NCBI GenBank assembly: GCA_009781395.1
Contig: WQYG01000007.1
Location: 1-37,426 of the forward strand
Length of the DNA: 37,426 nt
Direction of reading: 5' to 3'
Source: Candidatus Bathycorpusculum sp.
GTDB taxonomy: Archaea; Thermoproteota; Bathyarchaeia; Bathyarchaeales; Bathycorpusculaceae
The notes below the pieces were generated by a model. The model had not been told where the DNA came from. It was given only the letters and a program-made list of their open reading frames with translations, and made no database searches. This document shows positions 14,768-33,553 of this stretch, one piece after another. The translations under genes were made by a program, and so were the position numbers. The stretch's first letter is position 1. Each line of letters starts with the position of its first letter.

Positions 14768-14802
14768 TTTTAGTTATAACCGTTCTCAAGGTTCGAAGCA
14801 AA

Positions 14803-14883
14803 ATGATAGATCTTCACAGTGATATAAATGGAAGTCGAAAACATAGCTTCGAATACGGCTTTTATTATTGGTTTTATAATTAG
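14803..14883 (+). CDS. Aromatic-rich leader peptide of the aspartate kinase-shikimate operon
   Basis: 26-codon ORF, ATG at 14803, TAG at 14881-14883. Residues 16-26 read FEYGFYYWFYN: eight of eleven are Phe, Tyr or Trp, ending one codon before the stop. The genes that follow make chorismate and the Phe/Tyr precursor prephenate, so the codons match the end products, as in bacterial trpL/pheL leaders. AAGG lies 11 nt before the ATG, and a TATA-like box about 36-43 nt upstream places the ORF at the start of the transcript. The last base of the stop codon is the first base of a 9-bp hairpin. Caution: the segment is T-rich, which by itself favours Phe and Tyr codons. Confidence 0.72.
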   Translation: MIDLHSDINGSRKHSFEYGFYYWFYN

Positions 14884-14885
14884 CC
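14857..14885 (+). promoter_or_regulatory. Alternative hairpin over the aromatic codons
   Basis: GGCT (14857-14860) can pair with AGCC (14882-14885), and ATTAT (14864-14868) with ATAAT (14876-14880), across a small internal loop. This stem covers the FYYWFY codons and takes up the first bases of the 14883-14914 hairpin, so the two structures exclude each other. A ribosome on the aromatic codons would prevent this stem. The pairing is A/U-rich and weak. Confidence 0.4.
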
Positions 14886-14914
14886 CAGGACTGACAAGTT
14901 TGGATGTTCTGGGC
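14883..14914 (+). promoter_or_regulatory. Stop-codon-abutting hairpin between leader ORF and aspartate kinase
   Basis: GCCCAGGAC (14883-14891) pairs with GTTCTGGGC (14906-14914): nine pairs with one G-U, loop of 14 nt. It is the only G+C-rich structure in this AT-rich leader. It starts on the last base of the leader stop codon and ends 4 nt before the aspartate kinase ribosome binding site (AAGGTG, 14919-14924). No U-tract follows, so it is not a bacterial-type terminator. A second 9-bp pairing (14791-14799 with 14846-14854) brackets the front part of the leader ORF. Confidence 0.65.
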
Positions 14915-14931
14915 GTGTAAGGTGTAGGATT

Positions 14932-16176
14932 ATGGAAAATGTAAAATCTGACAAAAAAATTGTGGTTAAATTTGGTGGTTCAAGTCTTGCGGATCCTGAA
15001 AAGTTACTGAAAGCTGTAATGTCAGTTGTTTCAGAGGCTAAACGGGGCACCAAAATTGCAGTTGTAGTTTCGGCTATAGGTAAAACTACAGATATACTTT
15101 TATCCACAGCTAAGAATACTTCAAATGGCAAACTGGCTAAATGTGAATTAGATGACATTCTTTCCATGGGGGAACGTACAAGTGTTCGCATTTTTGCTGC
15201 TGCATTACGTAATAATGGAGTTGACGCGTGTTATTTTGATCCTATGGAGGATAAATGGCCAATAATTACAGATGATGTCTTTCAAAATGCGAATCCAAAC
15301 ATTAAAGAATGCAGTGAAAAGGTCAAGTGTCATGTTTTGCCACTTGTTAAAGAAGGCACAATACCTGTAATTGCAGGGTTTGTTGGTAAAACAAGAGAGG
15401 GAAAAATCACTACTCTTGGCAGAGGAGGAAGTGACACCACTGCATTCATTATAGGGGAAAGTATAGCGGCAGATCAAATTGTGCTAGTTACAGATGCAGA
15501 GGGCATAATGACAAGTGATCCTAAAATTATTGAGAAGCCAAAGCTTTTGTCAGAGATTAATGTTAACACTTTAGTAGGTTTAGCTGATTCGGGGGCTAAA
15601 TTTATTCACAGTAAAGCCCTTAAGTATAAACCAAAGGATATTGATGTTAAAGTTATGAGCAATAAACACGATGACTTAAACATGCCAGGCACTCTAATTA
15701 AAGATGTATTATCATGGGAACTTGACGCTGAAATTGCCAGTTCAATACCTGTGGCCGAGATAACAGTTATCGGAGAAGGCATTTCAAATAATACCAAAAT
15801 TATAATGGAAATGTTTGAAAAAGTCAGACAACACACCTCTTTACGTGGCATGTCAATGAATGCAAATTCCATCATATTTTACATAAATCAAGAAAATAAT
15901 ATAATAGAGCTCTTTAACCAAATTCACAAAATTACAATAGACAATAAGGAAACAATTGCCATGGCCGTTAAAAAAGACCTTGCCTTCATCCAAACAAGTG
16001 GCGTGGGTCTTGAAGAAACTCATGGCATCATTGGCAAAATCAGCGAAGACCTAAGACATGCAGGCATCAACATTTCAGGCATATTAACCATAACTTCAAG
16101 CATTTTATTGTTTGTAGATTGGAACGAAAAAGAAAAAGCGTTAAACCTCATCAAAAATTCATTAAAAACACAATAA
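14932..16176 (+). CDS. lysC: Aspartate kinase
   Basis: 414 residues. N-terminal amino-acid kinase domain with VVKFGGSSLADPEKL, the TTLGRGGSDTTAF segment and VTDAEGIMTSDP; C-terminal regulatory half (about 270-414) with two ACT-like repeats, including GVGLEETHGIIGKISEDL. It phosphorylates aspartate, the first step to aspartate semialdehyde. In archaea with ADH synthase and DHQ synthase II, that semialdehyde feeds the aromatic pathway, which explains its place at the head of this operon. Aspartate semialdehyde dehydrogenase is not in the window. The ATG follows AAGGTG by 7 nt. Control by the ACT domains is expected; the effector is unknown. Confidence 0.92.
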   Translation: MENVKSDKKIVVKFGGSSLADPEKLLKAVMSVVSEAKRGTKIAVVVSAIGKTTDILLSTAKNTSNGKLAKCELDDILSMGERTSVRIFAAALRNNGVDACYFDPMEDKWPIITDDVFQNANPNIKECSEKVKCHVLPLVKEGTIPVIAGFVGKTREGKITTLGRGGSDTTAFIIGESIAADQIVLVTDAEGIMTSDPKIIEKPKLLSEINVNTLVGLADSGAKFIHSKALKYKPKDIDVKVMSNKHDDLNMPGTLIKDVLSWELDAEIASSIPVAEITVIGEGISNNTKIIMEMFEKVRQHTSLRGMSMNANSIIFYINQENNIIELFNQIHKITIDNKETIAMAVKKDLAFIQTSGVGLEETHGIIGKISEDLRHAGINISGILTITSSILLFVDWNEKEKALNLIKNSLKTQ

Positions 16177-16194
16177 TAATAAGAGGCGGAATAC

Positions 16195-16989
16195 TTGAAT
16201 CAAGGCAAAAACAGACGAATAAAAAAAATCTTTCAACAAAAAGATAACCGCACAATAATTGTCCCCATGGATCATGGCGTAACCACTGGACCAATACTAG
16301 GTATAACTAACATACAACAAACAATTAACCAACTTGTTAAAGGCGGAGTTGATGCAGTTCTTGTTCACAAAGGTATAGCAAAAATCGTTGACACCACAGG
16401 CACAGGATTAATTGTAATGCTTAACGGCATGTCAAATCTTAATCCAAACATAAACAACAAAGTTCAAGTTTGCAGTGTACAAGAAGCTACACGACTTGGT
16501 GCTGACGCAGTTTCAGTACACATAAATGTAGGCGCGCCAGAAGAAGATAAAATGCTATCAACCCTTGGAAAAGTAGCTGAAGAATGTGACAAATTCGGTT
16601 TACCTTTACTTGCCATGATGTATCCTAGAGGACCAAAAATTACCAATGAACATGCACTAGAAGCAGTAGCTCATGCAGCTCGAATTGGCGCAGAACTTGG
16701 CGCAGACATCATAAAAACCAACTATACAGGAACAATAGAGACCTTTAAACAAGTTACAGAAAGCTGTCCAGTACCAGTTCTTATTGCAGGTGGACCAAAA
16801 TGTAAATCTGTAAAAGAAATTTTGCAAACTACAAATGACGCTCTTAAAGCAGGTGCAGCCGGACTTTCAATGGGTCGAAACATATTCCAATGGGACAATC
16901 AAGCTTTAATGGTAAAAGCACTCTCAGCAATTGTACATAAAGGCGCATCTATAGAGCAGGCACAAAAAATTCTCGGTGAAAAACCTTGA
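16195..16989 (+). CDS. aroA': 2-amino-3,7-dideoxy-D-threo-hept-6-ulosonate (ADH) synthase
   Basis: 264-residue class I aldolase (DeoC/FbaB type) that condenses aspartate semialdehyde with a sugar-derived donor, replacing DAHP synthase in many archaea. Motifs: IVPMDHGVTTGP, the active-site strand IIKTNYTG with Schiff-base K174, and VLIAGGPK. The start is a TTG with a strong ribosome binding site (GAGGCGG) 5 nt upstream. The next gene (DHQ synthase II) overlaps by 4 nt, which confirms the aromatic role over a glycolytic aldolase role. Confidence 0.9.
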   Translation: MNQGKNRRIKKIFQQKDNRTIIVPMDHGVTTGPILGITNIQQTINQLVKGGVDAVLVHKGIAKIVDTTGTGLIVMLNGMSNLNPNINNKVQVCSVQEATRLGADAVSVHINVGAPEEDKMLSTLGKVAEECDKFGLPLLAMMYPRGPKITNEHALEAVAHAARIGAELGADIIKTNYTGTIETFKQVTESCPVPVLIAGGPKCKSVKEILQTTNDALKAGAAGLSMGRNIFQWDNQALMVKALSAIVHKGASIEQAQKILGEKP

Positions 16990-18005
16990 AAGAACTCTGG
17001 ATAGAAACTAACAGTAAACAAAACAACACGTCAACAAGTTTTGTTAATCAATACAGCGATGTAATAGTCGAAGAAGACAAAGCTTTTTTTGTGGCGTTAA
17101 AACAAGAACACACCATTTTATCGCCGTCATCCTCAAATTTTGAGAATCTAGATGTTAAAGGCAAAATTCTTAGAATTTGTATATCTGATAAGTCAACAGA
17201 AAACTTGATTGTTGAAGCAGCTGAAAGAGGCGCAAGTTATCTATTAATTAGTACTGCAAATTGGCGTGTTATTCCATTAGAGAACCTTATTGCACGTATT
17301 AAGGGTAAAAGTAAGTTAATCGCAGAGGTATGTAATGCTGAAGAGGCAAAAGTTGCACTTGAAACTTTGGAGTTAGGCACCGATGGTGTGCTGCTCAAGT
17401 CGGCTCAGCCAGAGGAGATTTTAAAAACTGTTGCACTTGTTAAACCTGAAGAGTTAAAACTTGAAATGGCTACTGCAAAAATTATTTCCACTAAACCCAT
17501 TGGCAACGGTGCACGGGTATGTGTTGATACATGTGATTTGATGACACAACAAGAGGGTATGCTGGTTGGTAGCCAAAGTGCAGGCTTATTTTTAGTAGAA
17601 GCGGAAGTTAATGAGAACCCATATGTTGCATCACGACCGTTTAGAGTTAACGCGGGTTCTCTATCTATGTACACTTTAGGCAATTTACAAACTACACGGT
17701 ATCTTCAAGAGTTCAAAGTGGGCGATGAAGTGATAATTGTTAGCCAAGATGGCAAGACACGTAAAGCTAATGTGGGCAGGATAAAAATTGAAATCAGACC
17801 ATTAATTCTCATCGAAGCCCAAAGTGGAGATAAAATAATTAAAACTATATTGCAAAATGCAGAAACTATACGGGTAGTTACGTCTAAAGGATCTAAACCT
17901 GTCACCGAACTTAGCCCTGGTGATAAAGTAATAGTTCATCTTGCAGCAAAAGGGGGCAGACACTTTGGTGTCAGCGTACCTGACGAAACTGTGATTGAAA
18001 AATGA
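16986..18005 (+). CDS. aroB': 3-dehydroquinate synthase II
   Basis: 339-residue archaeal-type enzyme that oxidatively deaminates and cyclises ADH to 3-dehydroquinate. Recognisable family blocks: VDTCDLMTQQEGMLVGSQSAG, ASRPFRVNAGSLSMYTLG and the C-terminal HFGVSVPDETVIEK. Start TTG at 16986 inside a TTGA overlap with the preceding gene; end overlaps aroD by 4 nt (ATGA), a tightly coupled order. The N-terminal third (WRVIPLENLIARIKG) also fits. Confidence 0.92.
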   Translation: MKELWIETNSKQNNTSTSFVNQYSDVIVEEDKAFFVALKQEHTILSPSSSNFENLDVKGKILRICISDKSTENLIVEAAERGASYLLISTANWRVIPLENLIARIKGKSKLIAEVCNAEEAKVALETLELGTDGVLLKSAQPEEILKTVALVKPEELKLEMATAKIISTKPIGNGARVCVDTCDLMTQQEGMLVGSQSAGLFLVEAEVNENPYVASRPFRVNAGSLSMYTLGNLQTTRYLQEFKVGDEVIIVSQDGKTRKANVGRIKIEIRPLILIEAQSGDKIIKTILQNAETIRVVTSKGSKPVTELSPGDKVIVHLAAKGGRHFGVSVPDETVIEK

Positions 18006-18682
18006 TACCTAACATTTGTGTTTCGGTAAAACCAAAAACCAACAGTGAAGCATTAGCCCTAATTGAGAAAGCAGAGACTGTTAAGGCAGACTTTATTGAA
18101 GTTCGTTTAGATGATTTAGAAACATTAAAACTGGGGGATCTTTCGGCTTCAACTAAAATTCCTCTTATCGCTACAAACAAGCTGTCAAGTGAGGGGGGTA
18201 GTTTTACTGGAACTCAAATGCAACGCTGGCAGACCTTAATATATGCAGCAAAAAATGGTTTTCAATACATCGATTTGGATTTAGCAAATTTAAAGTTAAA
18301 AGAGCAAATTATGGATTTAAGGGAGTTGAATGTTAAAACTATTGTTTCTTTTCATAGATTTGATGGTGCGTTTAGCACTCAGGAAATGCAGCACATTTTA
18401 AATGAAGAGATGGATAGTGGTGCAGATGTTTGTAAAATAGTTGGTACTGCAAAACAGATACAAGATAACTTAACGGTGCTTAATTTTGTTTCAGAAAATG
18501 CAGGTAAAACTCGTTTAGTGTGTTTTTGTATGGGAGAGCAAGGTAGGATTTCGCGGTTGTTTTCACCTGTTTTTGGAGCATTTTTCACTTTTGCCGCTTT
18601 AGAGCAGGGTAGTGAAACTGCGCGGGGGCAAATAAGCATAAATGATATGAGAGTGGCCTACTCTTCTTTATTGAGGCAATAG
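18002..18682 (+). CDS. aroD: 3-dehydroquinate dehydratase, type I
   Basis: 226 residues, TIM-barrel, Schiff-base dehydratase converting 3-dehydroquinate to 3-dehydroshikimate. Motifs in order: EVRLDDLE, SFHRFDGAFSTQEM (catalytic His), VCKIVGTAK (Schiff-base Lys) and MGEQGRISRLFSPVFGAFF. Start ATG in a 4-nt overlap with DHQ synthase II. Followed after 2 nt by aroE. Confidence 0.93.
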   Translation: MIPNICVSVKPKTNSEALALIEKAETVKADFIEVRLDDLETLKLGDLSASTKIPLIATNKLSSEGGSFTGTQMQRWQTLIYAAKNGFQYIDLDLANLKLKEQIMDLRELNVKTIVSFHRFDGAFSTQEMQHILNEEMDSGADVCKIVGTAKQIQDNLTVLNFVSENAGKTRLVCFCMGEQGRISRLFSPVFGAFFTFAALEQGSETARGQISINDMRVAYSSLLRQ

Positions 18683-18684
18683 AA

Positions 18685-19548
18685 GTGACTGTTTCGGGAA
18701 AAACACGTGTTTGTGCAGTTATCGGTAACCCAATAGAGCATTCATTAAGTCCTGTAATACAAAATGCCGCGTTTAATGCGTTGGATTTAGATGTTGTTTA
18801 TGTAGCTTTTACGGTGAAGCCCTCTGAGCTTGCCAATGCTTTATCGGGGATACGGGCTTTGGATATTTTGGGTTTAAATGTTACTATGCCGCATAAGGAA
18901 ACGGTAATACCGTATCTGGATTGGATTGATAATACTGCTAAGTGTTTGAATTCTGTAAACACTCTTCACTGTAAAGGGGGTAGATTATTAGGTTATAGTA
19001 CAGATGGTGTAGGTGCTCTTGAAGCGTTTAGGGGAAATGGTGCAGATCTGCAGGGTAAACGGGTATTGATGTTGGGGGCGGGTGGAGCAGCACGGGTTAT
19101 AGCTTACACGTTAATTGAGGCTGCTGAAGTAGAGGAGCTTGTTGTTCTTAACCGTACGGTTTCAGAGGCAGAAAAATTAGCAGATATTATAAAATACAAG
19201 TTTGATAAAAAAATTGTTATAGGTTCGCTCTCGTCAGAGGTTATTGGGGAGGAGATTAGTAATTCAGATGTTTTGCTTAATACCACATCTGTTGGGATGA
19301 AACCTAACGTAGATCAGAGGTTAATTACACCAGACAGTTTAAAGTCTGATTTGACTGTTATGGATATAGTGTACAATCCATTTGAAACTCAACTTGTTAA
19401 AGATGCCAAAATGGTAGGTGCTAAGGTGATAAGTGGTGTGGAAATGTTAATTTATCAAGGGGCGGCAGCGTTTGAGATTTGGACGGGTCATAAGGCGCCG
19501 GTGCAAGTTATGAGGAGGGCTGCTTTAGAGCAGCTAAACAAGGGGTAA
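18685..19548 (+). CDS. aroE: Shikimate dehydrogenase
   Basis: 287 residues, NADP-dependent reduction of 3-dehydroshikimate to shikimate. Motifs: substrate-binding NPIEHSLSP near the N-terminus, catalytic Lys in NVTMPHKE, STDGVGALEAF, the Rossmann loop GAGGAARV and NRT adenine-side motif, and C-terminal MLIYQGAAAFEIWTG. Start GTG at 18685, 2 nt after the aroD stop. Confidence 0.94.
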   Translation: MTVSGKTRVCAVIGNPIEHSLSPVIQNAAFNALDLDVVYVAFTVKPSELANALSGIRALDILGLNVTMPHKETVIPYLDWIDNTAKCLNSVNTLHCKGGRLLGYSTDGVGALEAFRGNGADLQGKRVLMLGAGGAARVIAYTLIEAAEVEELVVLNRTVSEAEKLADIIKYKFDKKIVIGSLSSEVIGEEISNSDVLLNTTSVGMKPNVDQRLITPDSLKSDLTVMDIVYNPFETQLVKDAKMVGAKVISGVEMLIYQGAAAFEIWTGHKAPVQVMRRAALEQLNKG

Positions 19549-19555
19549 ATATAGT

Positions 19556-20440
19556 ATGATACGAAGAGGAGGAGGGGAAGCATCAGCGTTGGTTCATGGT
19601 GCGGCAACAATTGTTAATGCCATGGCTACTAAAAGAGGTGCAGCTTTCGGTGTTAATCTTTACACTAAAGCAGAGGTAAAACTAACAAGTGAGCCACGGG
19701 TTATTGAGACAGAGATTACATCTGATCTATGCGAGGATTCTGTTTTAATTCAGAAAGCGATTGGAGTAGTTCTCAAACATTTCAATCTAGAGAATACTGT
19801 GGGGGCAAAAGTTAGGACTTGGAGTAACATTCCCATTGCCAGAGGTTTGAAGAGCAGCAGTACAGCGGCTAATGCGGTGGTTCTTGCAACTTTGGGTGCG
19901 TTGGGGGAGTCTTTTGAGGATTTGGATGTGGTAAAGTTGGGTGTTTTGGCGGCTTTTGAAGCAAAAGTTACCATCACAGGTGCGTTTGATGATGCCTGTG
20001 CGTCATATTTTGGTGGTTTAGTGGTTACGGATAATTTGAACTGTAAGCTGGTCAAACAAGAAGTGTTAACGGATGATTATGCTGTTTTGTTTCAAGTGCC
20101 ACCCAAGAAGGCGTACACAGTGAACACGAATACAGGTAATTTTTCATCGTTTGAGCCACAGATTGAAACGGCCTACAATATGGTTTTAAATGGGTTTCCT
20201 TGGGAGGCGTTAACATTAAATGGTCAATGTTATTCTGCAGCGTTTGGGTTTGATGACAAAGTTGCCATGGATGCTTTGAATGCTGGAGCAAAAGCGGCGG
20301 GTTTATGCGGTAAAGGGCCTGCAACTACAGCTGTTGTATCCAAAGAGTATATAGATCAAGTTAAGGCAGCTTGGCAGATCTATGAGGGAGAAATTATACA
20401 AGCAAGTTTGAACCATGAAAAAGCTAGGTTGCTTACATAA
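19556..20440 (+). CDS. aroK: Shikimate kinase, archaeal GHMP type
   Basis: 294 residues. This is the GHMP-superfamily shikimate kinase of archaea, not the bacterial P-loop type: phosphate-binding loop PIARGLKSSSTAANAV, the TGAFDDACASYFGG segment and the C-terminal GKGPATTAV loop. Phosphorylates shikimate at O3. The ATG at 19556 fits the family N-terminus (ALVHGAATIVNAMAT). Located between aroE and aroA as the pathway demands. Confidence 0.93.
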   Translation: MIRRGGGEASALVHGAATIVNAMATKRGAAFGVNLYTKAEVKLTSEPRVIETEITSDLCEDSVLIQKAIGVVLKHFNLENTVGAKVRTWSNIPIARGLKSSSTAANAVVLATLGALGESFEDLDVVKLGVLAAFEAKVTITGAFDDACASYFGGLVVTDNLNCKLVKQEVLTDDYAVLFQVPPKKAYTVNTNTGNFSSFEPQIETAYNMVLNGFPWEALTLNGQCYSAAFGFDDKVAMDALNAGAKAAGLCGKGPATTAVVSKEYIDQVKAAWQIYEGEIIQASLNHEKARLLT

Positions 20441-20442
20441 TA

Positions 20443-21765
20443 ATGGTCAACATAACTGTTAAACCTACAACAAAAAGAGGGGGTCTTCAGGGGATTTTAG
20501 CTGCGCCAGCATCAAAGTCTTACACTCAGCGTATGCTTATAGCAGCTGCACTTTCGGAAGGTTTAGGAAAAATTGTAAACCCTCTTTTGTCAGAAGACAC
20601 TCAAGCCACTCTTCGGGCAATTACTGCTTTTGGCGCTCAAGTGCATCAACAAAATAAGGAAAAAGATTATTGGGCGATTCAAGGTACAAACAAGTTAAAA
20701 GTTGCAGACAATTTAATAGATGTGGGGGAGTCAGGGGCAACTCTGCGATTTATGATACCCATTGCGGCTTTAGTGTCGGGTCAGTCGTCATTTCTATTAT
20801 CTGATTCACTTGAACGTCGACCAATTGAGCCGTTGCTTTCAAGTCTTAGAATGCTTAACATAGAGGCTTATTCAAAACAGGTAGGGAATCAACGGGTTAT
20901 TGTTGTTGAAGGTAACGGTTTAGCAGGTGGCAAAACCAGTCTTCCAGGTGATGTTAGCAGTCAATTTATCAGTGGGTTAATGTTTGCTTGTCCAATGGCT
21001 AAGGCAGACACGGATATACAGATTACGACTCCGTTAGAATCTAAAGATTATGTTAAAATGACTCAAAAAGTTCTCGCTCAACATAATATTGAAGTGCAAA
21101 TAAGCAATGATTATCAGCATATCCATATTCCTGGCAGACAGGTCTTTAGGCAGGTTGATTGTAAAGTGCCAGGCGATTTTTCTTCTGCTGCTTTTCTTTT
21201 AGCGGCAATAGCTATCACCAATTCTAATGTGAAAATAAATAATTTGGATTATCGTATGGTGCAGGGTGATAAGGCGATTTTGGAGGTACTTAAACAGATG
21301 GGGGTTAACATGAAAGTTGATGATTGTAGTATTGAGGTTCAGGGTGCAGAAGAGTTGTTGCATGCAGTGGATATTGATGCGAAAAATATTCCTGATCTTG
21401 TTCCGATTTGTGCGGTGTTGGCTTGTTATGCGGATGGAGAGTCTAAAATTTTTAATGCTCAACGGTTAAGGTTTAAAGAATCTGATCGGTTAGCTACTGT
21501 TCATGCGGAGTTAACAAAAATGGGGGCTTCAATTAGTATGGATGAATCAAGTTTAACTATTAAAGGGCCCTGTAAACTTTATGGTGCAACTATTAATCCG
21601 CATAATGATCATCGGATAGCCATGTCGTGTACTGTAGCGGCTTTGCGGGCAGAAGGAGAAACTATTGTGGAAAATGCTGAATGTGTCAGAAAGTCTTATC
21701 CGTCGTTTTATACTGATTTGTCAAGTGTAGGAGCGGAAATTGTTGGCGGGAAACTCGTTAGGTAA
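20443..21765 (+). CDS. aroA: 3-phosphoshikimate 1-carboxyvinyltransferase (EPSP synthase)
   Basis: 440 residues. Motifs: ASKSYTQRMLIAAALSEG at the N-terminus (PEP/shikimate phosphate-binding Lys), GESGATLRFMIP, LPGDVSSQFISGLMFA, KESDRLATV and NDHRIAMS. ATG is 2 nt after the shikimate kinase stop; the 3' end overlaps aroC by 23 nt. Confidence 0.95.
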   Translation: MVNITVKPTTKRGGLQGILAAPASKSYTQRMLIAAALSEGLGKIVNPLLSEDTQATLRAITAFGAQVHQQNKEKDYWAIQGTNKLKVADNLIDVGESGATLRFMIPIAALVSGQSSFLLSDSLERRPIEPLLSSLRMLNIEAYSKQVGNQRVIVVEGNGLAGGKTSLPGDVSSQFISGLMFACPMAKADTDIQITTPLESKDYVKMTQKVLAQHNIEVQISNDYQHIHIPGRQVFRQVDCKVPGDFSSAAFLLAAIAITNSNVKINNLDYRMVQGDKAILEVLKQMGVNMKVDDCSIEVQGAEELLHAVDIDAKNIPDLVPICAVLACYADGESKIFNAQRLRFKESDRLATVHAELTKMGASISMDESSLTIKGPCKLYGATINPHNDHRIAMSCTVAALRAEGETIVENAECVRKSYPSFYTDLSSVGAEIVGGKLVR

Positions 21766-22882
21766 AGAATTTGTTGTAACCACATTTGGTGAGAGTCATG
21801 GTAAAATTGTTGGAGTGCTTATCGATGGTTGTCCGGCTGGGTTGTTGCTTTCGGAGGAGGATTTTCAAGAAGAGCTTGATCAGAGAATTCCAGCGCAGTC
21901 CAAGATTGTTTCATCGCGTGTTGAGAAAGATGTTGCTAAAATTTTAAGTGGTGTGTTTAACGGTAAAACTACTGGTGCGCCCATAGCGATAACGGTTGAT
22001 AATAAAGAAATCAGGTCAGAGGATTATGAGCAGATTAAAGATTTGCCAAGACCTGGTCACTCTGATTATCCGGCTCGTATTTGTTTTGGTGGTTTTAATG
22101 ATTACCGTGGGGGGGGAAGGTTTTCGGGTCGTGTTACAGTTGCGCTTGTGTTGGCGGGGGTAATTGCCAAAAAACTTTTGGCTATATGTAGTATTGATGT
22201 TTTAGCCTATACTGTTGCGATAGGGGAAATCAGGTCGGAGAAAATGTTTAATGCTGTTGAGATTCGTAAAAATCGTATCCGTGCAGCTACAAGATGTCCC
22301 GATTTGGTTTGTGCTGAAAAGATGGAAGAAGCAATTATAGCAGCTAAAAACGCGGGGGATAGTTTAGGGGGAGTAGTTGAGTGTGTTGTTTGGAATGTGC
22401 CTGTGGGTGTTGGGGAGCCGTTGTTTGATGCTTTAGATGCAGATTTGGCTAAGGCGTTGTTTGGGGTTTCTGCGGTGAAGGGGGTAGAGTTTGGTGTAGG
22501 GTTTGCGGTGGCTGAAATGTTGGGTTCTCAAAATAATGATGCGTTTACAGTAAAGGAGGGTAGAGTTGAGTCAGTTACGGGTAATGCAGGGGGTATTTTG
22601 GGAGGTATAAGTAATGGTATGCCGATTACGATGAGGGTGGCAGTTAAGCCTACGCCGTCCATTAGTAGGGAACAAAAAACGGTTAATTTGTTAACTATGG
22701 AGGATGCCACGTTAACTGTTGTAGGCAGACATGATCCATGTGTTGTGCCTAAGGCTGTGCCGGCAATTGAGGCGGTTGTTGCAATAACTTTGGTGGATCA
22801 TTTAATGCGTGCAAGATATATTCCCAAAGTATTTGAGGATGAGAAGAATAGCAAGAAGAAGGGGAGTGGTAGTGTTGGATGA
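21743..22882 (+). CDS. aroC: Chorismate synthase
   Basis: About 379 residues, FMN-dependent, forms chorismate from EPSP. Motifs: AGNSLGKEFVVTTFGESHG at the N-terminus, RPGHSDYP, GGGRFSGRVTVA, and RHDPCVVPKAVPAIEA. The family begins MAGN, which points to the TTG at 21743 (AGGAG 9 nt upstream) and not the TTG one codon earlier. Overlaps aroA by 23 nt. The C-terminal 15 residues are Lys/Gly/Ser-rich and overlap the chorismate mutase start. Coding strand is extremely G+T-rich here. Confidence 0.95.
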   Translation: MAGNSLGKEFVVTTFGESHGKIVGVLIDGCPAGLLLSEEDFQEELDQRIPAQSKIVSSRVEKDVAKILSGVFNGKTTGAPIAITVDNKEIRSEDYEQIKDLPRPGHSDYPARICFGGFNDYRGGGRFSGRVTVALVLAGVIAKKLLAICSIDVLAYTVAIGEIRSEKMFNAVEIRKNRIRAATRCPDLVCAEKMEEAIIAAKNAGDSLGGVVECVVWNVPVGVGEPLFDALDADLAKALFGVSAVKGVEFGVGFAVAEMLGSQNNDAFTVKEGRVESVTGNAGGILGGISNGMPITMRVAVKPTPSISREQKTVNLLTMEDATLTVVGRHDPCVVPKAVPAIEAVVAITLVDHLMRARYIPKVFEDEKNSKKKGSGSVG

Positions 22883-23135
22883 GCTTCAGGTATTACGTAA
22901 GCGTATAGATGAGATTGATGTTCAAATTTTAAAAGTGTTAAGTGAGCGCATAATTGTTTGTCGAAAGATTGGAGAACACAAGAAGCAGCAGAATTTGCCT
23001 ATACGGGATCAAACTAGGGAGCAAGAAGTTTACAGTAAAGTCAAAGATATAGCTGTGGAATTTCAGTTGGAACCTGTACAAATTGAGCGGGTTTATCGCG
23101 AAATAGTTAATATGTGCAGTGACATTCAAAAATAG
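22872..23135 (+). CDS. aroQ: Chorismate mutase, AroQ class
   Basis: About 87 residues, the size of a monofunctional all-helical AroQ mutase. ELQVLRKRIDEIDVQILKVL, the RIIVCRKIGEHKK helix (active-site Arg/Lys) and RDQTREQEVY match the family. A longer frame begins at 22809 inside aroC, but the homology begins at LDELQ; GTG 22872 (or TTG 22875) follows GGGGAG. It rearranges chorismate to prephenate for the dehydrogenase two genes on and for pheA in the opposite operon. Confidence 0.9.
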   Translation: MLDELQVLRKRIDEIDVQILKVLSERIIVCRKIGEHKKQQNLPIRDQTREQEVYSKVKDIAVEFQLEPVQIERVYREIVNMCSDIQK

Positions 23136-23162
23136 AGAGCTCTTAACGGAGAGTCATTCTTT

Positions 23163-24242
23163 ATGCTGTATGAGATAAATGAAAAAGCATTAAAACTAGA
23201 AAGTGAAGGAAAAAAAATAATCCGATTAAACCTAGGTGACCCCGACATGGCTACGCCTCCTGAAATCGTTGAAGCAGCCTATGCTTCAATGAAGGCAGGT
23301 AAAACCAAATATTCATCTTCTTATGGCGAACTTAAATTACGTCAAAAAATCGCTGAAATACACAATGTTAAAGCAGAAAATGTTGTAATCACCCCTGGTT
23401 CAAAATGGGCTATTTTTAGTACCATGTTTTTAACAATGCAGAAAGGTGGCAATGTAATCATCCCTACACCATACTGGACAGCCTATGATTTAATTGCTAA
23501 AAGCATTGGTGCTCAAACTAAACTGCTTAAAACAGAAATGGAAACAGGCTGGAAAGTCGATTTAGGCCAACTGGAAAGTTTAATTGACAGCGAAACCAAA
23601 ATGATTATTCTAAATAATCCAAACAATCCAACAAGTAAAGTTATGGATGATGAAACACTTGATGGAATTGTTGAAATTGCCAACAGAAAAGGCATAATTG
23701 TACTCTCCGATGAAGTTTACGGTGCAATATCTTTTAACAAAACTAAAAGCGTCCTTGACTATGGAGCTGATTCTAAACACATCCTCTCCAACGGGTTTAG
23801 TAAAACCTTTACCATGACAGGCTGGCGTGTTGGCTATATAGTAGCAAACAAGATGCTTGTTGATCAAGTAACTAAATTAAACCAAATAACCTTCAACAAC
23901 GTACCCGTCTTTATCCAAGAAGCAGCAATGAAAGGCTTAGAGTTAAGAGAACAAATTGCAGAAAACATTAAAGTCAAATATAAACAACGTGCAGACCTTG
24001 CAAGCAAAAAACTAGGTGATGCAGGCTTCAAATTCACTCAACCCGACGCGCCATTTTATGTGTTTCCCAAACGTGAAGGCTTAGATGGAGAAAAATTCAC
24101 TCTAAACCTACTTGACAGTGGCGTAGCCGTAGCTCCAGGCACAAGTTTTGGGGACTACAGAGAACATTTCCGCATAAGCCTAACAGCACCAGACAATGAA
24201 ATAGAAGCAGGATTAGATAAAATCTGCGAGGCAGCTCAATAA
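23163..24242 (+). CDS. Class I aminotransferase (aspartate/aromatic type)
   Basis: 359 residues. Fold type I PLP enzyme: NLGDPDMATPPEI, the SDEVYGAISF strand with the cofactor Asp, and SNGFSKTFTMTGWRVGY with PLP K214. The context suggests transamination of 4-hydroxyphenylpyruvate, phenylpyruvate or prephenate, but the family also contains aspartate aminotransferases. The N-terminus is about 10-15 residues shorter than usual: the stop of the preceding gene lies in frame 30 nt upstream, and GGAGAG 9 nt before this ATG supports the start. Base composition switches to A+C-rich from here onward. Confidence 0.88.
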   Translation: MLYEINEKALKLESEGKKIIRLNLGDPDMATPPEIVEAAYASMKAGKTKYSSSYGELKLRQKIAEIHNVKAENVVITPGSKWAIFSTMFLTMQKGGNVIIPTPYWTAYDLIAKSIGAQTKLLKTEMETGWKVDLGQLESLIDSETKMIILNNPNNPTSKVMDDETLDGIVEIANRKGIIVLSDEVYGAISFNKTKSVLDYGADSKHILSNGFSKTFTMTGWRVGYIVANKMLVDQVTKLNQITFNNVPVFIQEAAMKGLELREQIAENIKVKYKQRADLASKKLGDAGFKFTQPDAPFYVFPKREGLDGEKFTLNLLDSGVAVAPGTSFGDYREHFRISLTAPDNEIEAGLDKICEAAQ

Positions 24243-24243
24243 A

Positions 24244-25119
24244 ATGAGAACAGCCATACTCGGCGCAGGAAAAATGGGTTTATGGTTTGCCAAATTCTGT
24301 AAAGAAAAAGGTGACACCGTAATCCTTGCAGGCCGTAATGCTGAGAAAATGGCTAAACTCAAAAATGAGCTACAAATTGAAACCACCACAGATTTTCAAA
24401 ACGCAATACAAAACGCAGATAACATTCTTATCTGCACTTCCATATCTTCTTTTGAAGACATAGTCAAAAACATTGCACCCCTTACACATAAAGGACAAGT
24501 GGTAATGGATATTTGCTCCATAAAAGAACACCCCGTTAACATCATGCACCAATACATCAAAGACGCAACTGTTTTAGGCACGCACCCAGTCTTTGGCCCC
24601 GGCAGCAATGGTGTAACCCATAAAGCCTATGTACTCACCCCAACCAACAAACAAGAAGAAACCGTTGCAGAACAATATAAGCAGTGGCTTGAAAAAGAAG
24701 GCGCCAACGTCTTCATCATGACCCCAAAAAAACATGACGAACTTATGTCCATCATTTTAGGACTCCCACACTTCATAGGCCTAATCGCCTGCGAAACTTT
24801 GTTAGAACAAAAAGATTTTGCTGAATCCAAAAAACTTGCCGGCACCACCTACCGCATGCTCTTCACCCTAGCCGAAGCCACAGCCCAAGAAACCCCAGAC
24901 CTTTATGCTAATGTACAAACTAAACTAGCAGATTTAGGCAAAATGGAGGAACTCTTCATCCAAAACGCCCAAACAATGCTGGACTTAATGAAAAACAAAG
25001 ACACCAATGGAATCATGGCAAGAATGGAACACCTCCGAACAAAACTTGCCAAAGCCGACAACAACTATAGCAAAAGCTATGAAACAATGTACAAAATGCT
25101 TCAATCAACCGAAGAATAA
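24244..25119 (+). CDS. tyrA: Prephenate dehydrogenase
   Basis: 291 residues. NAD(P)-binding ILGAGKMGLWFAKF, the VMDICSIKEHP segment, and the catalytic-region THPVFGPG; the all-helical C-terminal half follows (GLPHFIGLIACETLL). It turns prephenate into 4-hydroxyphenylpyruvate for tyrosine. No ACT domain or fused chorismate mutase is visible. It directly follows the aminotransferase with a 1-nt gap and closes the aromatic operon. Confidence 0.9.
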   Translation: MRTAILGAGKMGLWFAKFCKEKGDTVILAGRNAEKMAKLKNELQIETTTDFQNAIQNADNILICTSISSFEDIVKNIAPLTHKGQVVMDICSIKEHPVNIMHQYIKDATVLGTHPVFGPGSNGVTHKAYVLTPTNKQEETVAEQYKQWLEKEGANVFIMTPKKHDELMSIILGLPHFIGLIACETLLEQKDFAESKKLAGTTYRMLFTLAEATAQETPDLYANVQTKLADLGKMEELFIQNAQTMLDLMKNKDTNGIMARMEHLRTKLAKADNNYSKSYETMYKMLQSTEE

Positions 25120-25632: not shown

Positions 25633-25703
25633 TCACACTCTTAAAAGTGAAAATAACAAGCAGATAAGCGCCGATAAAAACTAGTTAACTTGATGGAGAC
25701 ATG

Positions 25704-25747: not shown

Positions 25748-25880
25748 TACTGTTTTTGTTCCATAACGTGTTTATGTGCTAATGCTGTAAAAGAGTAAAG
25801 TTTGTGTTTTTAAGGTGTTATTATTATTTGGCGTTTTTTTAGATATTTTGATTATCGTAGGTATAAAACTCGGGAACAGG

Positions 25881-28231: not shown

Positions 28232-28235
28232 GTTT

Positions 28236-29270: not shown

Positions 29271-29779
29271 GTCTTGTTCAGCCTTTTGCGTAAATTCTCA
29301 ATTAAGCCTCCGTCCGTTAAAATTTCCATGATGAACGGGGGCAAGTTTGTGCCTTGCAGGACTATATTGTTAGTAGTATCAGATAGATTTGTGATTTGTC
29401 CTGTTTCTAAATCTACGGAAAGCTCATCACCTGTTTTTGCTGCATCAGAGATGCCAGAGCATTCAATGACGGGTAACCCTATGTTTATGGCATTGCGGTA
29501 AAATATGCGTGCAAAGGTTTCGGCTATGACACATTTTACGCCAGCATACTTTAAGGCTATAGGAGCTTGTTCTCTGCTTGAGCCACAACCAAAGTTTTTA
29601 CCGCCGACTAGGATTATGCCGTTTTTTGCTTTGTTGACAAATTCTGTGTCTAAACTTTCCAGTGCGTGTTTGCCTAATTCGTAGGGGTCAACTATTATAA
29701 GGTATTTTCCCGGCAAGATGACATCGGTGTCGATGTTGTTTCCGAATTTTATGGTGGGGGCTTTAATTTTGGATTCCAT
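29267..29779 (-). CDS. leuD: 3-isopropylmalate/homoaconitate dehydratase small subunit
   Basis: 170 residues, the short archaeal form. Swivel-domain motif GKNFGCGSSREQAPIALKY and FARIFYRNAINIGLPVIEC. The specificity loop after the first strand reads YLII, neither YLRT typical of isopropylmalate isomerases nor YLVY reported for methanogen homoaconitase (recalled from work on the Methanocaldococcus small subunits). ATG shares a base with the leuC stop (TAATG). Confidence 0.9.
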   Translation of the reverse strand: MESKIKAPTIKFGNNIDTDVILPGKYLIIVDPYELGKHALESLDTEFVNKAKNGIILVGGKNFGCGSSREQAPIALKYAGVKCVIAETFARIFYRNAINIGLPVIECSGISDAAKTGDELSVDLETGQITNLSDTTNNIVLQGTNLPPFIMEILTDGGLIENLRKRLNKT

Positions 29780-31047
29780 TATTGTTTTGCCTCCAAGTTT
29801 GTGGGGTTTGTGATTTTGCCTGTTATGGCTGAGGCTGCAACAACGGCGGGTGAGGCTAAATAGACGTTGGCTTGAGTGCTGCCCATTCGGCCGATAAAGT
29901 TGCGATTACTGGTGCTTATGCATGTTTCTCCTGCGGCTAATAGTCCAATGTGGCCTCCTAGGCAGGGACCACAGGCTGAGCCGCAAACAATTGCGCCTGC
30001 GTCTGTAAAGATTTCAGTTAAACCTTCAACTAGGGCTTGTTTGTAGACTTCTTGAGAAGCGGGAATTATCAAGGCTCGAACGGTGTCTTTGATTTTTTTG
30101 CCTTTTAATATTTGTGCAGCTAAGCGTAGGTCTTCTAAACGTCCGTTAGTACATGAGCCTATGAATGCTTGATCAACGGGTACTTCACCGATTTCGGATA
30201 CGGGTTTAACGTTGTCAACAGAGGCGGGGCAGGCGATTTGGGGTTCCATTTTTGAAACATTAAATTCTAAAGTGTTTTCGTATTGAGCGTCTTTGTCGCT
30301 TTTTAGAGCTGTAAAGTCAGGTAGGTTTTTGATGCGTTCTTGTAGGTATTCTTTTGTTATGTTATCGGGTTCGATTATGCCGTTTTTGGCGCCCATTTCA
30401 ACTGCCATGTTGCACAGGGTCATTCGGCTGGCTATACTCATTTCATGTATAGTTGGTCCGGTGAATTCTGTGCTTTTGTATATGGCGCCATCAACGCCTA
30501 ATTTACCAATTATATTTAGAACTAAATCTTTTGAGGTGACGTATTTGTTAAATTTTCCGTTAACATTTATTTTGATGGTGGGGGGTATTTTGAACCAGAT
30601 TTTTCCGGTTGTCATGACTGCGGCGGCTTCTGTTGAGCCTATGCCTGTGGAGAAAGCGCCAAATGCGCCATAAGTGCATGTGTGGGAGTCGGAGCCTACG
30701 ATGACTGTGCCGGGAGATACATGTCCTTGTTCGGGCATGACTTGGTGGCAAACGCCTCCTCGGCCTACGTCGTAGATGCGTAGTTTTTGTTCTTTGGCAA
30801 ATTGGCGCATTGTTTTGTGAAGTTCAGCTGCTTTAATGGATTCAGCAGGGATTTGGTGGTCTAAAATTACGACTATTTTTTGGTTGTCCCAAACTTTTTC
30901 TGCGCCGATTTTTTTGAATGCTTCTACAGCTAAAGGTCCGGTTAAATCGTGGGTCATCAACATGTCAACGTTGGCATCCACAATTTCTCCAGGTGTGACT
31001 GTTTTTTTGTTGGATGCTTTAGCTAAGATTTTTTCGGTAATGTTCAT
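29779..31047 (-). CDS. leuC: 3-isopropylmalate/homoaconitate dehydratase large subunit
   Basis: 422 residues, aconitase superfamily, archaeal length. 4Fe-4S ligands C299 (GSCTNGR), C359 and C362 (ACGPC); VIVGSDSHTCTYGAFGAF and SNRNFIGRMGS are also present. Isomerises 2- to 3-isopropylmalate with LeuD. The ATG follows GGAAAGGAA. Unlike the other genes of this operon it is separated from its upstream neighbour by 131 nt, which hold a leucine-rich short ORF and a hairpin. Confidence 0.92.
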   Translation of the reverse strand: MNITEKILAKASNKKTVTPGEIVDANVDMLMTHDLTGPLAVEAFKKIGAEKVWDNQKIVVILDHQIPAESIKAAELHKTMRQFAKEQKLRIYDVGRGGVCHQVMPEQGHVSPGTVIVGSDSHTCTYGAFGAFSTGIGSTEAAAVMTTGKIWFKIPPTIKINVNGKFNKYVTSKDLVLNIIGKLGVDGAIYKSTEFTGPTIHEMSIASRMTLCNMAVEMGAKNGIIEPDNITKEYLQERIKNLPDFTALKSDKDAQYENTLEFNVSKMEPQIACPASVDNVKPVSEIGEVPVDQAFIGSCTNGRLEDLRLAAQILKGKKIKDTVRALIIPASQEVYKQALVEGLTEIFTDAGAIVCGSACGPCLGGHIGLLAAGETCISTSNRNFIGRMGSTQANVYLASPAVVAASAITGKITNPTNLEAKQ

Positions 31048-31083
31048 GTTTTTCCTTTCCTATTACTATTTTGTTATTGTTAT

Positions 31084-31110
31084 TAAGTAACTGTGTCTAA
31101 AGGTTACTTA
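31084..31110 (-). promoter_or_regulatory. Perfect hairpin starting at the stop codon of the Leu-rich leader ORF
   Basis: TAAGTAAC pairs with GTTACTTA, eight perfect base pairs around an 11-nt loop. On the minus strand the 5' arm begins with the TAA stop of the 15-codon ORF. The 3' arm ends 36 nt before the leuC ATG. The downstream sequence is A-rich rather than U-rich, so this is not a classical terminator; translation control or factor-dependent termination is more likely. Confidence 0.6.
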
Positions 31111-31155
31111 TGGATGGTTCAAATTTGAAAGGGGGAGAGTGTTAAGCCTTTCCAT
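31108..31155 (-). CDS. Leucine-rich leader peptide inside the ilv-leu operon
   Basis: 15 codons: MERLNTLPLSNLNHP, with four Leu (CTT, CTC, CTT, TTG). It begins 23 nt after the ilvH stop, with a purine-rich GAAGAAGAG about 9 nt before the ATG, and ends exactly where an 8-bp hairpin begins. The next gene, leuC, starts the leucine-specific part of the operon. By analogy with bacterial leuL it could sense charged Leu-tRNA and set leuCDBA-pheA expression apart from ilvBH. Four Leu in 15 residues alone is weak evidence; position and the matching layout of two other leaders carry the case. Confidence 0.55.
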   Translation of the reverse strand: MERLNTLPLSNLNHP

Positions 31156-31178
31156 GTAGTAAATCTCTTCTTCTTTTG

Positions 31179-31691
31179 TTACTCGTCTATTTTGATGGCT
31201 TTGGCTCCTCGTGCTAGGGCGGTTATGCCTGTTCTGGCAAGTTCAAGTACGCCAAAGGTTTTCATCAAGTTTATGAAGGCATCGATTTTGTCAGGTCCGC
31301 CGGTGATTTCAACTGTTAGGCTATCGTTTGAGATGTCAATTATTCTGCTGCGGAAGACTTTGACAAAGTTTATTACGTCAGAGCGTATTTTGGAGTCAGT
31401 GATTTCAACTTTGATAAGGGCTATTTCGCGCATAACAAAGTTGCCTGATTCTAATTCTTCAACTTTTAGAACATCGATTTGTTTGGCAACTTGTTTGACT
31501 ACTTGGTCAAGGGTTTTTTCGTCTGCGTTTACTGTAATGGTCATACGTGCGATGTCTTTTTGTTGTGTTGCGCCTACGGTTATGCTTTCGATGTTAAAGT
31601 TTCGTCGTCTAATCAGGTTAGAGATAGAGTGCAGTACACCTGGTTTGTTTTCAACTAGGACAGATATGATTTTAGTTTTTCCAGTTTCCAT
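31179..31691 (-). CDS. ilvH: Acetolactate synthase small (regulatory) subunit
   Basis: 170 residues, N-terminal ACT domain (ISVLVENKPGVLHSISNLIR, RRNFNIESITVG) plus the C-terminal IlvH domain (EIALIKVEI, ITGGPDKIDAFINLMK). It confers feedback, usually by valine, on IlvB. Its ATG and the ilvB stop share a base. Expressed from the leader promoter upstream of ilvB. Confidence 0.93.
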   Translation of the reverse strand: METGKTKIISVLVENKPGVLHSISNLIRRRNFNIESITVGATQQKDIARMTITVNADEKTLDQVVKQVAKQIDVLKVEELESGNFVMREIALIKVEITDSKIRSDVINFVKVFRSRIIDISNDSLTVEITGGPDKIDAFINLMKTFGVLELARTGITALARGAKAIKIDE

Positions 31692-33403
31692 TAATAGTCA
31701 CCTTTTTGTTGGGGTAATCCGCATCCTGGAGGTACAAAGGGTACCACATCAGTTTCTGAGCCAATAGGCACATCAATTACTGTTGTAACCTTACTATCCA
31801 TGGCGGTTTTGATTGCTTTTCTAAATTCATCAATTGAAGATACACGAGTACCTTGTGCACCGTAGGCTTCAGCTAGTTTGACAAAGTTGGGTGTTTTGCC
31901 CAAGTTAATGGCGTTATAGCGTCGGCCATAGAGTGTTCGTTGCCATTGAGCAACCATACCTAACACACTATTATTTAGCACCAATACAATTACAGGAATG
32001 TCTTCCATAACGCTGCAGGCTAATTCTTGTTCAGACATTATAAAGCTGCCATCCCCTGCTATGTCAATAACTATGCGGTCAGGGCAGGCGACTTTGGCGC
32101 CGATTGCGGCTGGAAAACCAAAGCCCATTGTTCCAAGTCCGCCAGAGCTTATAAAAGTTCGTGGCTGCAGGGTTTGCATGTAGAGTGCAGACCACATTTG
32201 ATTTTGCCCAACTTCTGTTGTAACAATACCGCTTGGGGGTAATAGTTTGCGTAGTTCGGATAGTAAGGCTTTTGGAACTAGGTCGCGGGGGTTTTCTTTT
32301 AGCAGAGGGCTTAGTTGTTCTTTTATTTCTTTAACTTTGTTTGTCCAAGCTTTATTTTCGCCTTTTCTTAGTTTTTCTGAAGTGGCGGTTAGTAACATGT
32401 TGAGAGAAGCTTTGGCATCTGCAATAATAGCTAAGTCTACCTCTATGTTTTTGTTGATTTCTGCGGCGTCCACATCTATTTGGATTTTTTTGGCGTCTTT
32501 TGCAAAAGTGTCCAAGTTGGTGGTTGCGCGGTCAGAGAGTCGTGTTCCTATTGCCAGTAGAACGTCGGCTTCGCCGATTAGTCGGTTAGCTGCAGGGTTG
32601 CCGTGCATGCCTATGCAGCCTAAGGATAGGGGATGGTTTTCTGGGAAGGCGCCTTTACCCATGAAAGTAGTTGTAACGGGAGCCATTAATAGGTCAGACA
32701 TTTTGACGGCTTGGTCAGCTGCGTCTGCTAATATGACTCCGCCTCCAACTAGGAGTATGGGGCGTTCGGCTTTTGTTAAAAGTTCGGCGGCTTGGCTGAT
32801 TTTAGCTGGGTCGGGGGGTTGTGGTAGTCTGTAGCTTCTGATGTTGGGTTTGTCTGTGAATTCGACGTCGGTAATGTTTGATTGTATGTTTTTGGGTAAA
32901 TCAATTAATACTGGGCCAGGTCTGCCGGTGGTTGCGATGTGGAAGGCGTTGGTGACCATTTGGGGGATTTCTGTAACTGATTGGGGTTGATAATTGTATT
33001 TGGTGATTGCTGTTGTTATACCTAGTATGTCTGCTTCTTGGAAGGCGTCTCGGCCTATCATGTAGCTTGAGTTAATGCCGCAGGTGGGAATTTGGCCTGT
33101 TAGGGCGATTATGGGGCTTGAGTCCATGTAGGCGTTTGCGATGCCTGTTACTAGGTTTGTGGCTCCTGGTCCGCTGGTTGCCATGCATACGCCGGCGCGG
33201 CCGCTGGCTCTTGCGTAGCCTTCTGCTTCATGTGCAGCGCATTGTTCGTGTCGTGCTAGGATGTGGCGGATTTTTTTGTTGTCGTAGAGGGCGTCGTATA
33301 CGGGAAGGATGGCGCCGCCTAAGATTCCAAAGATTGTATCAACCTTTTGTCGTTCAAGAGATTCTAAAAGTGCTTGTGCACCAGACATTTTTGGCATATT
33401 CAA
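31691..33403 (-). CDS. ilvB: Acetolactate synthase large (catalytic) subunit
   Basis: 570 residues, ThDP-dependent: ARHEQCAAHEAEGYARASG (catalytic Glu), FAD-region GDGSFIMSEQELA with downstream NNSVLGMVAQWQR (ThDP/Mg motif), and PVLIDLPKNIQ. Makes acetolactate/acetohydroxybutyrate for Val, Leu and Ile. Start: TTG at 33403 lies 6 nt after AGGAG; an ATG at 33397 (12 nt spacing) is the alternative and changes only two residues. No ilvC, ilvD or ilvE is in the window. Confidence 0.94.
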   Translation of the reverse strand: MNMPKMSGAQALLESLERQKVDTIFGILGGAILPVYDALYDNKKIRHILARHEQCAAHEAEGYARASGRAGVCMATSGPGATNLVTGIANAYMDSSPIIALTGQIPTCGINSSYMIGRDAFQEADILGITTAITKYNYQPQSVTEIPQMVTNAFHIATTGRPGPVLIDLPKNIQSNITDVEFTDKPNIRSYRLPQPPDPAKISQAAELLTKAERPILLVGGGVILADAADQAVKMSDLLMAPVTTTFMGKGAFPENHPLSLGCIGMHGNPAANRLIGEADVLLAIGTRLSDRATTNLDTFAKDAKKIQIDVDAAEINKNIEVDLAIIADAKASLNMLLTATSEKLRKGENKAWTNKVKEIKEQLSPLLKENPRDLVPKALLSELRKLLPPSGIVTTEVGQNQMWSALYMQTLQPRTFISSGGLGTMGFGFPAAIGAKVACPDRIVIDIAGDGSFIMSEQELACSVMEDIPVIVLVLNNSVLGMVAQWQRTLYGRRYNAINLGKTPNFVKLAEAYGAQGTRVSSIDEFRKAIKTAMDSKVTTVIDVPIGSETDVVPFVPPGCGLPQQKGDY

Positions 33404-33439
33404 CTTTGTCTCCTATTTGTTAGATTGACGTTTAGACTG

Positions 33440-33503
33440 ATGGTTATGTAAAAGTTATTTGAAAACCATGTGAAGGCAAGTTTAGAGATTACTCTGGGAG
33501 AAT
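33440..33503 (-). promoter_or_regulatory. Structured leader between the Val-Leu-Ile-Leu ORF and ilvB
   Basis: Three pairings on the minus strand. (a) A small stem (33488-33503) with 6 bp, a 1-nt bulge and a CCA loop, whose first base is the last base of the leader stop codon. (b) TGGGA in the leader ORF (33525-33529) with TCCCA (33495-33499), which excludes (a). (c) A downstream 6-bp stem, ATGGTT and AACCAT (33464-33469 with 33440-33445). Each is short and AT-rich, so their stability is uncertain. Confidence 0.4.
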
Positions 33504-33553
33504 TATAGAATAAGTACCCGACGATCCCAACTATTGAGGTGACAATTCCTCAT
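33503..33553 (-). CDS. Branched-chain leader peptide of the ilv-leu operon
   Basis: 16 codons: MRNCHLNSWDRRVLIL, ending Val-Leu-Ile-Leu (GTA CTT ATT CTA) directly before TAA. It lies 100 nt upstream of ilvB, whose product starts Val, Leu and Ile synthesis. The ATG has AAAGAGG about 8-10 nt upstream and follows a TATA-like box by about 43 nt, so it would be the first ORF of the transcript. The four regulatory codons sit at the very end of the ORF and a small hairpin starts at the stop. It parallels bacterial ilvL/ivbL leaders. Whether it is translated is unknown. Confidence 0.68.
   Translation of the reverse strand: MRNCHLNSWDRRVLIL

Follow-up and report, generated by a model that had tools for sequence, protein, structure and literature searches.

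The window analysed here, the whole 37,426-nucleotide stretch of contig WQYG01000007.1 from the archaeon Candidatus Bathycorpusculum sp., carries on its plus strand an operon for aromatic amino acid biosynthesis, preceded by a short open reading frame (ORF) that ends in a run of aromatic codons and by a hairpin that begins on the stop codon of this ORF. Matches to Pfam and NCBIfam identified genes for an amino acid kinase, a DeoC-type aldolase, 3-dehydroquinate synthase II, 3-dehydroquinate dehydratase, shikimate dehydrogenase and a GHMP kinase in the first part of the operon, followed by genes for 5-enolpyruvylshikimate-3-phosphate synthase, chorismate synthase, chorismate mutase, an aminotransferase and prephenate dehydrogenase; their spacing suggests that they are co-transcribed. 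A first-pass annotation of the window, made from the sequence alone, had grouped the ORF with two others ahead of ilvB and leuC and read all three as leaders of one archaeal attenuation system; the gene identities it implied for the aromatic, ilv and leu genes agree with the Pfam and NCBIfam matches. The aromatic region comprises the following features.

14752..14767, plus strand: promoter-like box of the leader, CCGAAA (resembling a B recognition element, BRE) plus GCTTATATT (TATA-like), from conservation
14790..14799, plus strand: element S, GGTTCGAAGC, immediately 5' of the leader ATG, near-invariant in 28 loci
14803..14883, plus strand: aromatic leader ORF MIDLHSDINGSRKHSFEYGFYYWFYN, 26 codons, stop TAG, with start, stop and frame kept in 28 genus loci
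14846..14854, plus strand: predicted partner of S inside the ORF, GCTTCGAAT, codons S-F-E-Y, from consensus fold and duplex test
14883..14914, plus strand: hairpin GCCCAGGAC...GTTCTGGGC, starting on the last base of the stop codon, seen in all 30 genus loci (28 aligned, two read separately)
14921..14928, plus strand: possible Shine-Dalgarno (SD) sequence of the first operon gene, GGTGTAGG, 6 nt past the hairpin
14932..25119, plus strand: aromatic operon, from Pfam and NCBIfam matches

Both the leader ORF and the stop-codon hairpin were present in 30 of 30 same-genus loci fetched. Twenty-eight of these loci were aligned; L035 and L060 failed the start-motif filter and were read separately, outside the counts of 28, and both carry leader and hairpin. 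Codons for Phe, Trp and Tyr (F/W/Y) averaged 7.64 in the last 12 positions of the 28 aligned leaders compared with 2.23 in shuffled sequences (0/500 resamples). The proposed richness of the leader at 14803-14883 in codons for the products of its operon is therefore far above chance, and the inverted repeat said to open on the last base of its TAG was likewise confirmed at 14883-14914. The N-terminal half of the leader is near neutral (ratio of nonsynonymous to synonymous changes per site, pN/pS, 0.76-0.95) with the frame never lost, and the tail is under more constraint (pN/pS 0.30-0.66), with Phe, Tyr and Trp retained but interchanged and with a length that varies between genus loci by whole codons. 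Exchange among aromatic residues together with whole-codon length change is expected of codon sensing and not of an exact peptide. Upstream, the promoter-like box is kept as CCGAAAnGCTTATA in all but two of the aligned loci, and its spacing is consistent with a promoter role and a transcription start near 14788-14791. At the SD position of the first operon gene, relatives within the genus have GGGTGT or a similar sequence. Short inverted repeats, perhaps an operator, were also seen by eye at 14780-14793, between the TATA-like box and the leader start; these read AACC..GGTT in the termite clade and CTG..CAG in several other genus loci.

The distribution of the leader extends well beyond the genus. 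In what follows the class is taken as Bathyarchaeia, and families, genomes and loci are coded by f-, G- and L-numbers, respectively. Named relatives of the first aromatic gene, the kinase gene that heads the operon, have up to 89% identity and come mostly from Candidatus Bathycorpusculum and other Bathyarchaeota metagenome-assembled genomes. This gene had matches in 101 of 256 class genomes at E <=1e-90, 70 of them outside the genus, and the region upstream of it was scored in 64 of these 70 loci for an ORF of 9-45 codons with at least five F/W/Y in the last 12 codons. Such an aromatic-tail ORF was found in 28/28 genus loci and in 48/64 loci (27/34 genera) of the class outside the genus, including 21/21 in f1, 14/14 in f6, 5/6 in f9, 2/2 in each of f5 and f12, and 1/1 in each of f13, f14, f19 and f23. 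Nineteen of 36 kinase loci from the phylum outside the class were fetched, picked by score and family spread, and 12 of the 19 carry the ORF. Shuffled sequence yielded an aromatic-tail ORF at a rate of 1.5-3.7%, and the same aromatic test ahead of control genes was positive at 0-7% of loci (trpE and hisG 3/57, three short trpE loci having been excluded from 60; ilvB 2/28; leuC 0/29). Between families the peptides, for example ..NPYYYYYYYCFF, ..TFHYPYFYFFYCYYFFEG, ..FAHEFFFYYNYF and ..VFGFFYGFYFYFYFGP, share little but aromatic composition, and the sequences of S and of the hairpin change while an aromatic tail and a hairpin stay. Of 20 contexts, 17 have the kinase gene at the head of a shikimate operon; in two others it stands alone and one was cut by a contig end. 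Three loci lie outside the 64: L112 (G047), cut by a contig end, has a visible tail that is aromatic; L126 (G043), whose kinase is 39% identical with an E-value above 1e-90, has no aromatic-rich ORF upstream; and L286 (G210, f18), excluded on the same E-value ground, likewise lacks such an ORF (score 3). Five f10 genomes with the kinase were not among the loci fetched, and the 5' part of L224 is truncated at a contig end.

A separate case is L283 (G370, f39), where no shikimate genes lie within 7.6 kb downstream of the kinase and an aromatic-rich ORF, MKAAHFYRFSGYTYYRI, is nonetheless found upstream, together with a 10-nt pairing run between the untranslated region (UTR) and the stop region.

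The window hairpin at 14883..14914 has a fold z of -2.51. For comparison across the class, 60 nt from the second stop base were folded against shuffles in 29 representatives, which span 28 genera in 9 families (for L252 the second-ranked ORF was taken by eye). The stop region folded with z < -1.5 in 24/29, and the first paired base lies 0-2 nt past the second stop base in 22/29. An SD-like stretch was found within 30 nt of the hairpin end in 28/29 at a median offset of 3 nt, a count made with a broad motif list and without shuffle control. Eleven of the 12 leaders from outside the class were also folded, L269 being left out, and six of the 11 had z < -1.5. A hairpin with a four-base GTAA/GTGA loop containing the stop codon occurs at three f35 loci from a single genus; its stems differ on both sides between loci, and these loci also have 10-11 nt complementary runs between the 5' UTR and the ORF. 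In L280 (G303, f32), early leader codons (GCCTCCTGAG) are complementary to the likely SD of the operon (CTTAGGAGG), which would amount to direct translational control.

Pairing of element S was examined within the genus and across families. The genus consensus fold consists of two stems, one of S with the codons S-F-D/E and one of GCCCAGAACT with AGTTCTGGGC starting at the stop codon. Duplex formation of S with 14846-14854 gave p 0.045 in the window copy, and the S stem in the genus alignment has one pair with one both-sides change and one break. In f5, f6, f9 and f23 the stop-codon arm is matched by complementary bases immediately 5' of the leader start codon, with shuffle p <=0.05 in 5/12 representatives (plain UTR shuffles) and p <=0.115 in 11/12, the latter threshold having been chosen after the values were seen. 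The corresponding counts at p <=0.05 were 1/13 in f1 and 0/4 in f12, f13, f14 and f19, a weak signal. In f1 the complement of S lies in the ORF just before the aromatic run, as runs of 7-13 nt in several genera, with p <=0.05 in 3/13. Start codons of 10 representatives in this pairing test were picked by eye from the upstream TATA-like box.

As judged from these sequence comparisons, the aromatic operon is probably controlled by ribosome stalling in the leader acting on the stop-codon hairpin, whatever the output. The mRNA would start just before element S, and translation of the short ORF would end in a stretch dominated by Phe, Tyr and Trp codons that reaches the stop codon; the hairpin would extend from that codon to within a few nucleotides of the site where ribosomes bind ahead of the first enzyme gene. 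With ample charged Phe, Tyr and Trp tRNA the ribosome would finish and leave, allowing the hairpin to form and hold the operon down. With these tRNAs uncharged the ribosome would stall in the aromatic run, where it would cover the hairpin's 5' arm, and expression of the operon would follow. Aromatic codons close to the stop, together with a hairpin starting at the stop codon, are compatible with masking of that arm by a stalled ribosome. The conserved ORF, its codon content, the hairpin and their geometry are what the sequences show; that the leader is translated, that ribosomes stall in it, the sign of the response and the output are inferred from them. The first-pass proposal of archaeal attenuation by a pathway-matched leader is thus well supported for the aromatic operon, with a distribution reaching far outside the window.

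A number of observations weigh against this interpretation. The window leader has no clear SD ahead of it. Outside the termite clade the tail has few synonymous changes (pS 0.21 vs 0.66 in the N-terminal part), so part of the tail conservation may lie at the RNA level. Within the genus any both-sides change is seen in just 3/16 pairs of the two stems, a slight covariation because the genus hairpin is nearly invariant, and genomes of one genus are not independent. In five of the 29 class representatives the fold does not beat shuffles at a z of -1.5. The case for a simple block of translation is weakened by the position of the SD, which is not part of the hairpin. The aromatic-tail ORF is absent from 7/19 loci outside the class and was found in 0/9 f10 and 0/6 f15 loci, which have shikimate operons without the leader; seven of the 17 operon contexts (G276, G329, G277, G091, G073, G081 and G210) are leader-less, and a shikimate operon therefore does not always carry the leader.

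Upstream of the first aromatic gene in leader-less f15 loci (L238, L239, L241, L242, L244, L248) and f10 loci (L237, L256-L258, L261-L264, L266), GGTGATC/GGTGGTC-type motifs were seen within approximately 300 nt. These are in tandem in several f15 copies and in L237, where three were counted by eye, as if another control element had replaced the role of the leader.

Regarding the output of leader-stall control, we tentatively prefer one in which the hairpin impedes translation of gene 1 and the RNA, left untranslated, would then be exposed to factor-dependent termination (polarity). This preference arises because the hairpin is close before an SD-like stretch and most copies lack a U-tract, and the position of the hairpin just before the ribosome-binding site of the operon slightly favours translation as the output. 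The main rival, possible though doubtful, retains the same sensing and has premature transcription termination as its output, the hairpin plus a U-rich stretch or FttA/aCPSF1 freeing RNA polymerase before gene 1. Four or more T's within 10 nt after the hairpin were found in 5/29 representatives by script and in 9/29 by eye (g30, g48, g74, g16, g49, g55, g60, g61 and g62), the latter counting T's paired with stop-codon bases, and T5-T6 occurs inside the hairpin loop of several copies. According to PMC7515710, archaeal intrinsic termination needs a U-rich stretch and does not strictly need a hairpin, which would also favour termination. Against it, the window copy and most representatives lack a U-tract after the hairpin, and the hairpin holds a place close before the SD-like stretch that termination does not require. 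The earlier statement that a clear U-tract is lacking therefore holds for the window and fails as a rule for all relatives. Since an intrinsic terminator U-tract is absent, the window copy was not classed as a transcription attenuator of the bacterial kind.

Archaea of the phylum might also have an attenuator with a topology of its own, a proposal that we regard as possible though doubtful. The element before the start codon would pair with the stop-codon arm, which could alternatively pair with the downstream arm by the ribosome-binding site of the operon, and the off-hairpin would form only if ribosomes keep loading at the start and clearing the stop. The RNA would in this way measure ribosome flux through the aromatic codons, and would gate gene 1 at the level of translation and, through polarity, the operon at the level of transcription.

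Two other explanations appear improbable. In one, a protein or small molecule would bind RNA or DNA palindromes (TTCGAA, the GCCCAG hairpin) and the ORF would be a by-product. S and the hairpin are indeed near-invariant in the genus and TTCGAA is a DNA palindrome near the likely transcription start, but the S and hairpin sequences differ between families where the aromatic ORF stays, and no Rfam family matches: with Rfam 15 covariance models the window had no match at the gathering score and, at E up to 5, only implausible matches, all below that score. In the other, equally improbable, the hairpin would bring the stop codon beside the ribosome-binding site of the operon and promote re-initiation after the leader. 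This would suit a hairpin that reaches from the stop codon to an SD-like stretch in most representatives; starvation would, however, then lower expression of a biosynthetic operon, opposite to what the aromatic codons hint at. Least probable of all is an arrest peptide of the TnaC kind, in which the nascent chain itself would bind a free aromatic amino acid (Trp in the case of TnaC) and stop the ribosome. The motif SF[DE]YxFYY, well kept within the genus, speaks for it; against it, peptides of different families share little beyond aromatic content, the SF[DE] part doubles as an RNA pairing partner and the tail varies in length by whole codons.

The minus strand of the window carries ilvB, ilvN, leuC, leuD, leuB, a 2-isopropylmalate synthase gene and pheA. 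The features upstream of ilvB and leuC are these.

33494..33567, minus strand: conserved ilvB upstream element with SD AGAGG (33567-33563), a GAGG/CCTC hairpin and a TTGGG/CCCAG hairpin, in 30/30 genus loci
33503..33553, minus strand: short ORF MRNCHLNSWDRRVLIL inside the ilvB element, with its own SD
31142..31153, minus strand: promoter-like box GGAAAGGCTTAA beneath the supposed leucine leader ORF 31155-31108, GGAAAnn[CT]TT[TA]A in 29/29 genus loci

The ilvB ORF was rejected as a pathway-matched branched-chain leader. It is present at 33553-33503 as first described, and its content of Ile, Leu and Val (I/L/V) is at chance, averaging 4.32 in 28 genus loci compared with 4.34 in shuffles; its tail reads VLIL in 11/28 loci and VHFY, VQLL, VPF, VYFF etc. 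elsewhere. The alignment comprised 30 loci, including L077 and L078, which missed the filter, and the ORF counts rest on 28. What is conserved in 30/30, with small changes, is the block AGAGG...ATGAGGGATCGTCACCTCAATAGCTGGGATCGTCGGGTAC...CCCAG...CCTCT. RNAalifold pairs (T/C)TGGG in the ORF with CCCAG after the ORF, and GAGG with CCTC, rather than the repeat thought to open on the TAA of this ORF, which is not the conserved feature. Judged by eye, synonymous sites hardly vary and many changes are C to T, for which reason we read the element as a structured RNA with a start codon in it. None of the 9 predicted pairs changes on both sides in the genus loci, and the structure is accordingly not proven. 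The element is not in Rfam. The pattern TGAGGGATNNNCGGGTACGGAGG with <=2 mismatches was found in 22/256 class genomes, with 0 matches for a reversed control; 22 of the 23 matches lie just before ilvB and the remaining one within a longer ORF. In other families, the element having also been seen at L115-L118, L122-L125 and L188-L209, its two modules occur in swapped order. The SD of the ilvB ORF and the internal GAGG/GGAGG could compete for one CCTC(C).

At leuC, a leucine leader was likewise rejected. The window does contain both the ORF at 31155-31108 and a repeat, TAAGTAAC...GTTACTTA; the ORF lies on the promoter-like box and is not conserved, with an ATG ahead of the box in 10/29 genus loci and the four-Leu reading only in the window copy and L008, compared with 29/29 for the conserved stretch, GGAAAnnCTTAA (L006, without upstream DNA, was not counted). 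The simplest reading of this stretch is a promoter; transcription would then begin downstream of the ATG. ORF tails in the leuC set are slightly enriched in I/L/V (3.79 vs 3.26; 11/500) and in Leu (2.17 vs 1.78; 13/500), which speaks against the rejection, although the 3' end of ilvN is included and may cause the enrichment.

The claim of three leaders sharing one design is therefore upheld for the aromatic operon alone. In the 1.5 kb ahead of trpE and hisG, read in 30 loci each, no Trp-rich or His-rich ORF recurred, a scan with fewer bases in four loci at contig ends, without the trpE of the window genome and blind to an operon start further upstream; such ORFs occurred singly, Trp-rich in 3 loci and His-rich in 1. 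A general regulatory mode, as first suggested, is thus unsupported by the operons covered here.

The aromatic leader resembles the bacterial ribosome-mediated attenuators of amino acid operons (trpL, pheL, hisL type) in having a short leader ORF with a run of product codons directly before a biosynthetic operon and a hairpin that a stalled ribosome would change. It differs from these in being archaeal, in having one main hairpin from the stop codon to near the SD-like stretch of the operon, in the missing U-tract of the window and most representatives, in the suggested competing partner (f5, f6, f9, f23) upstream, right before the leader start codon, and in an F/Y-rich leader that serves a whole shikimate operon. 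In the ermC/cat translational attenuators the stall is brought about by a drug together with an arrest peptide, and the hairpin contains the SD. Stalling in a leader ORF would here too open a hairpin close to where ribosomes bind for the next gene, but the codons of the leader point to tRNA charging as the signal, and the SD-like stretch is just outside the hairpin. TrpY-type control also acts on archaeal amino acid operons, through a protein at the promoter and no leader ORF, unlike the aromatic operon with its leader.

According to a 2021 paper, archaea had no known transcription attenuation, and no report of archaeal leader-peptide attenuation was among the matches listed for the open literature, which excludes bioRxiv and most subscription journals. 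Leader-peptide attenuation as such is known from bacteria; the archaeal domain, the placement of the hairpin and the suggested upstream partner are, to our knowledge, new. Sequence turnover with codon content and hairpin kept may explain why homology searches and Rfam miss the leader. Judging from this layout, archaea may, as bacteria do, use ribosome stalling in a leader peptide to sense a shortage of amino acids. If so, a leader kept across families of an archaeal class and beyond would mean ribosome-coupled amino acid sensing in archaea, would tie transcription-translation coupling to regulation there and would make it easy to test how such signals are read by the polymerase or the ribosomes of archaea.

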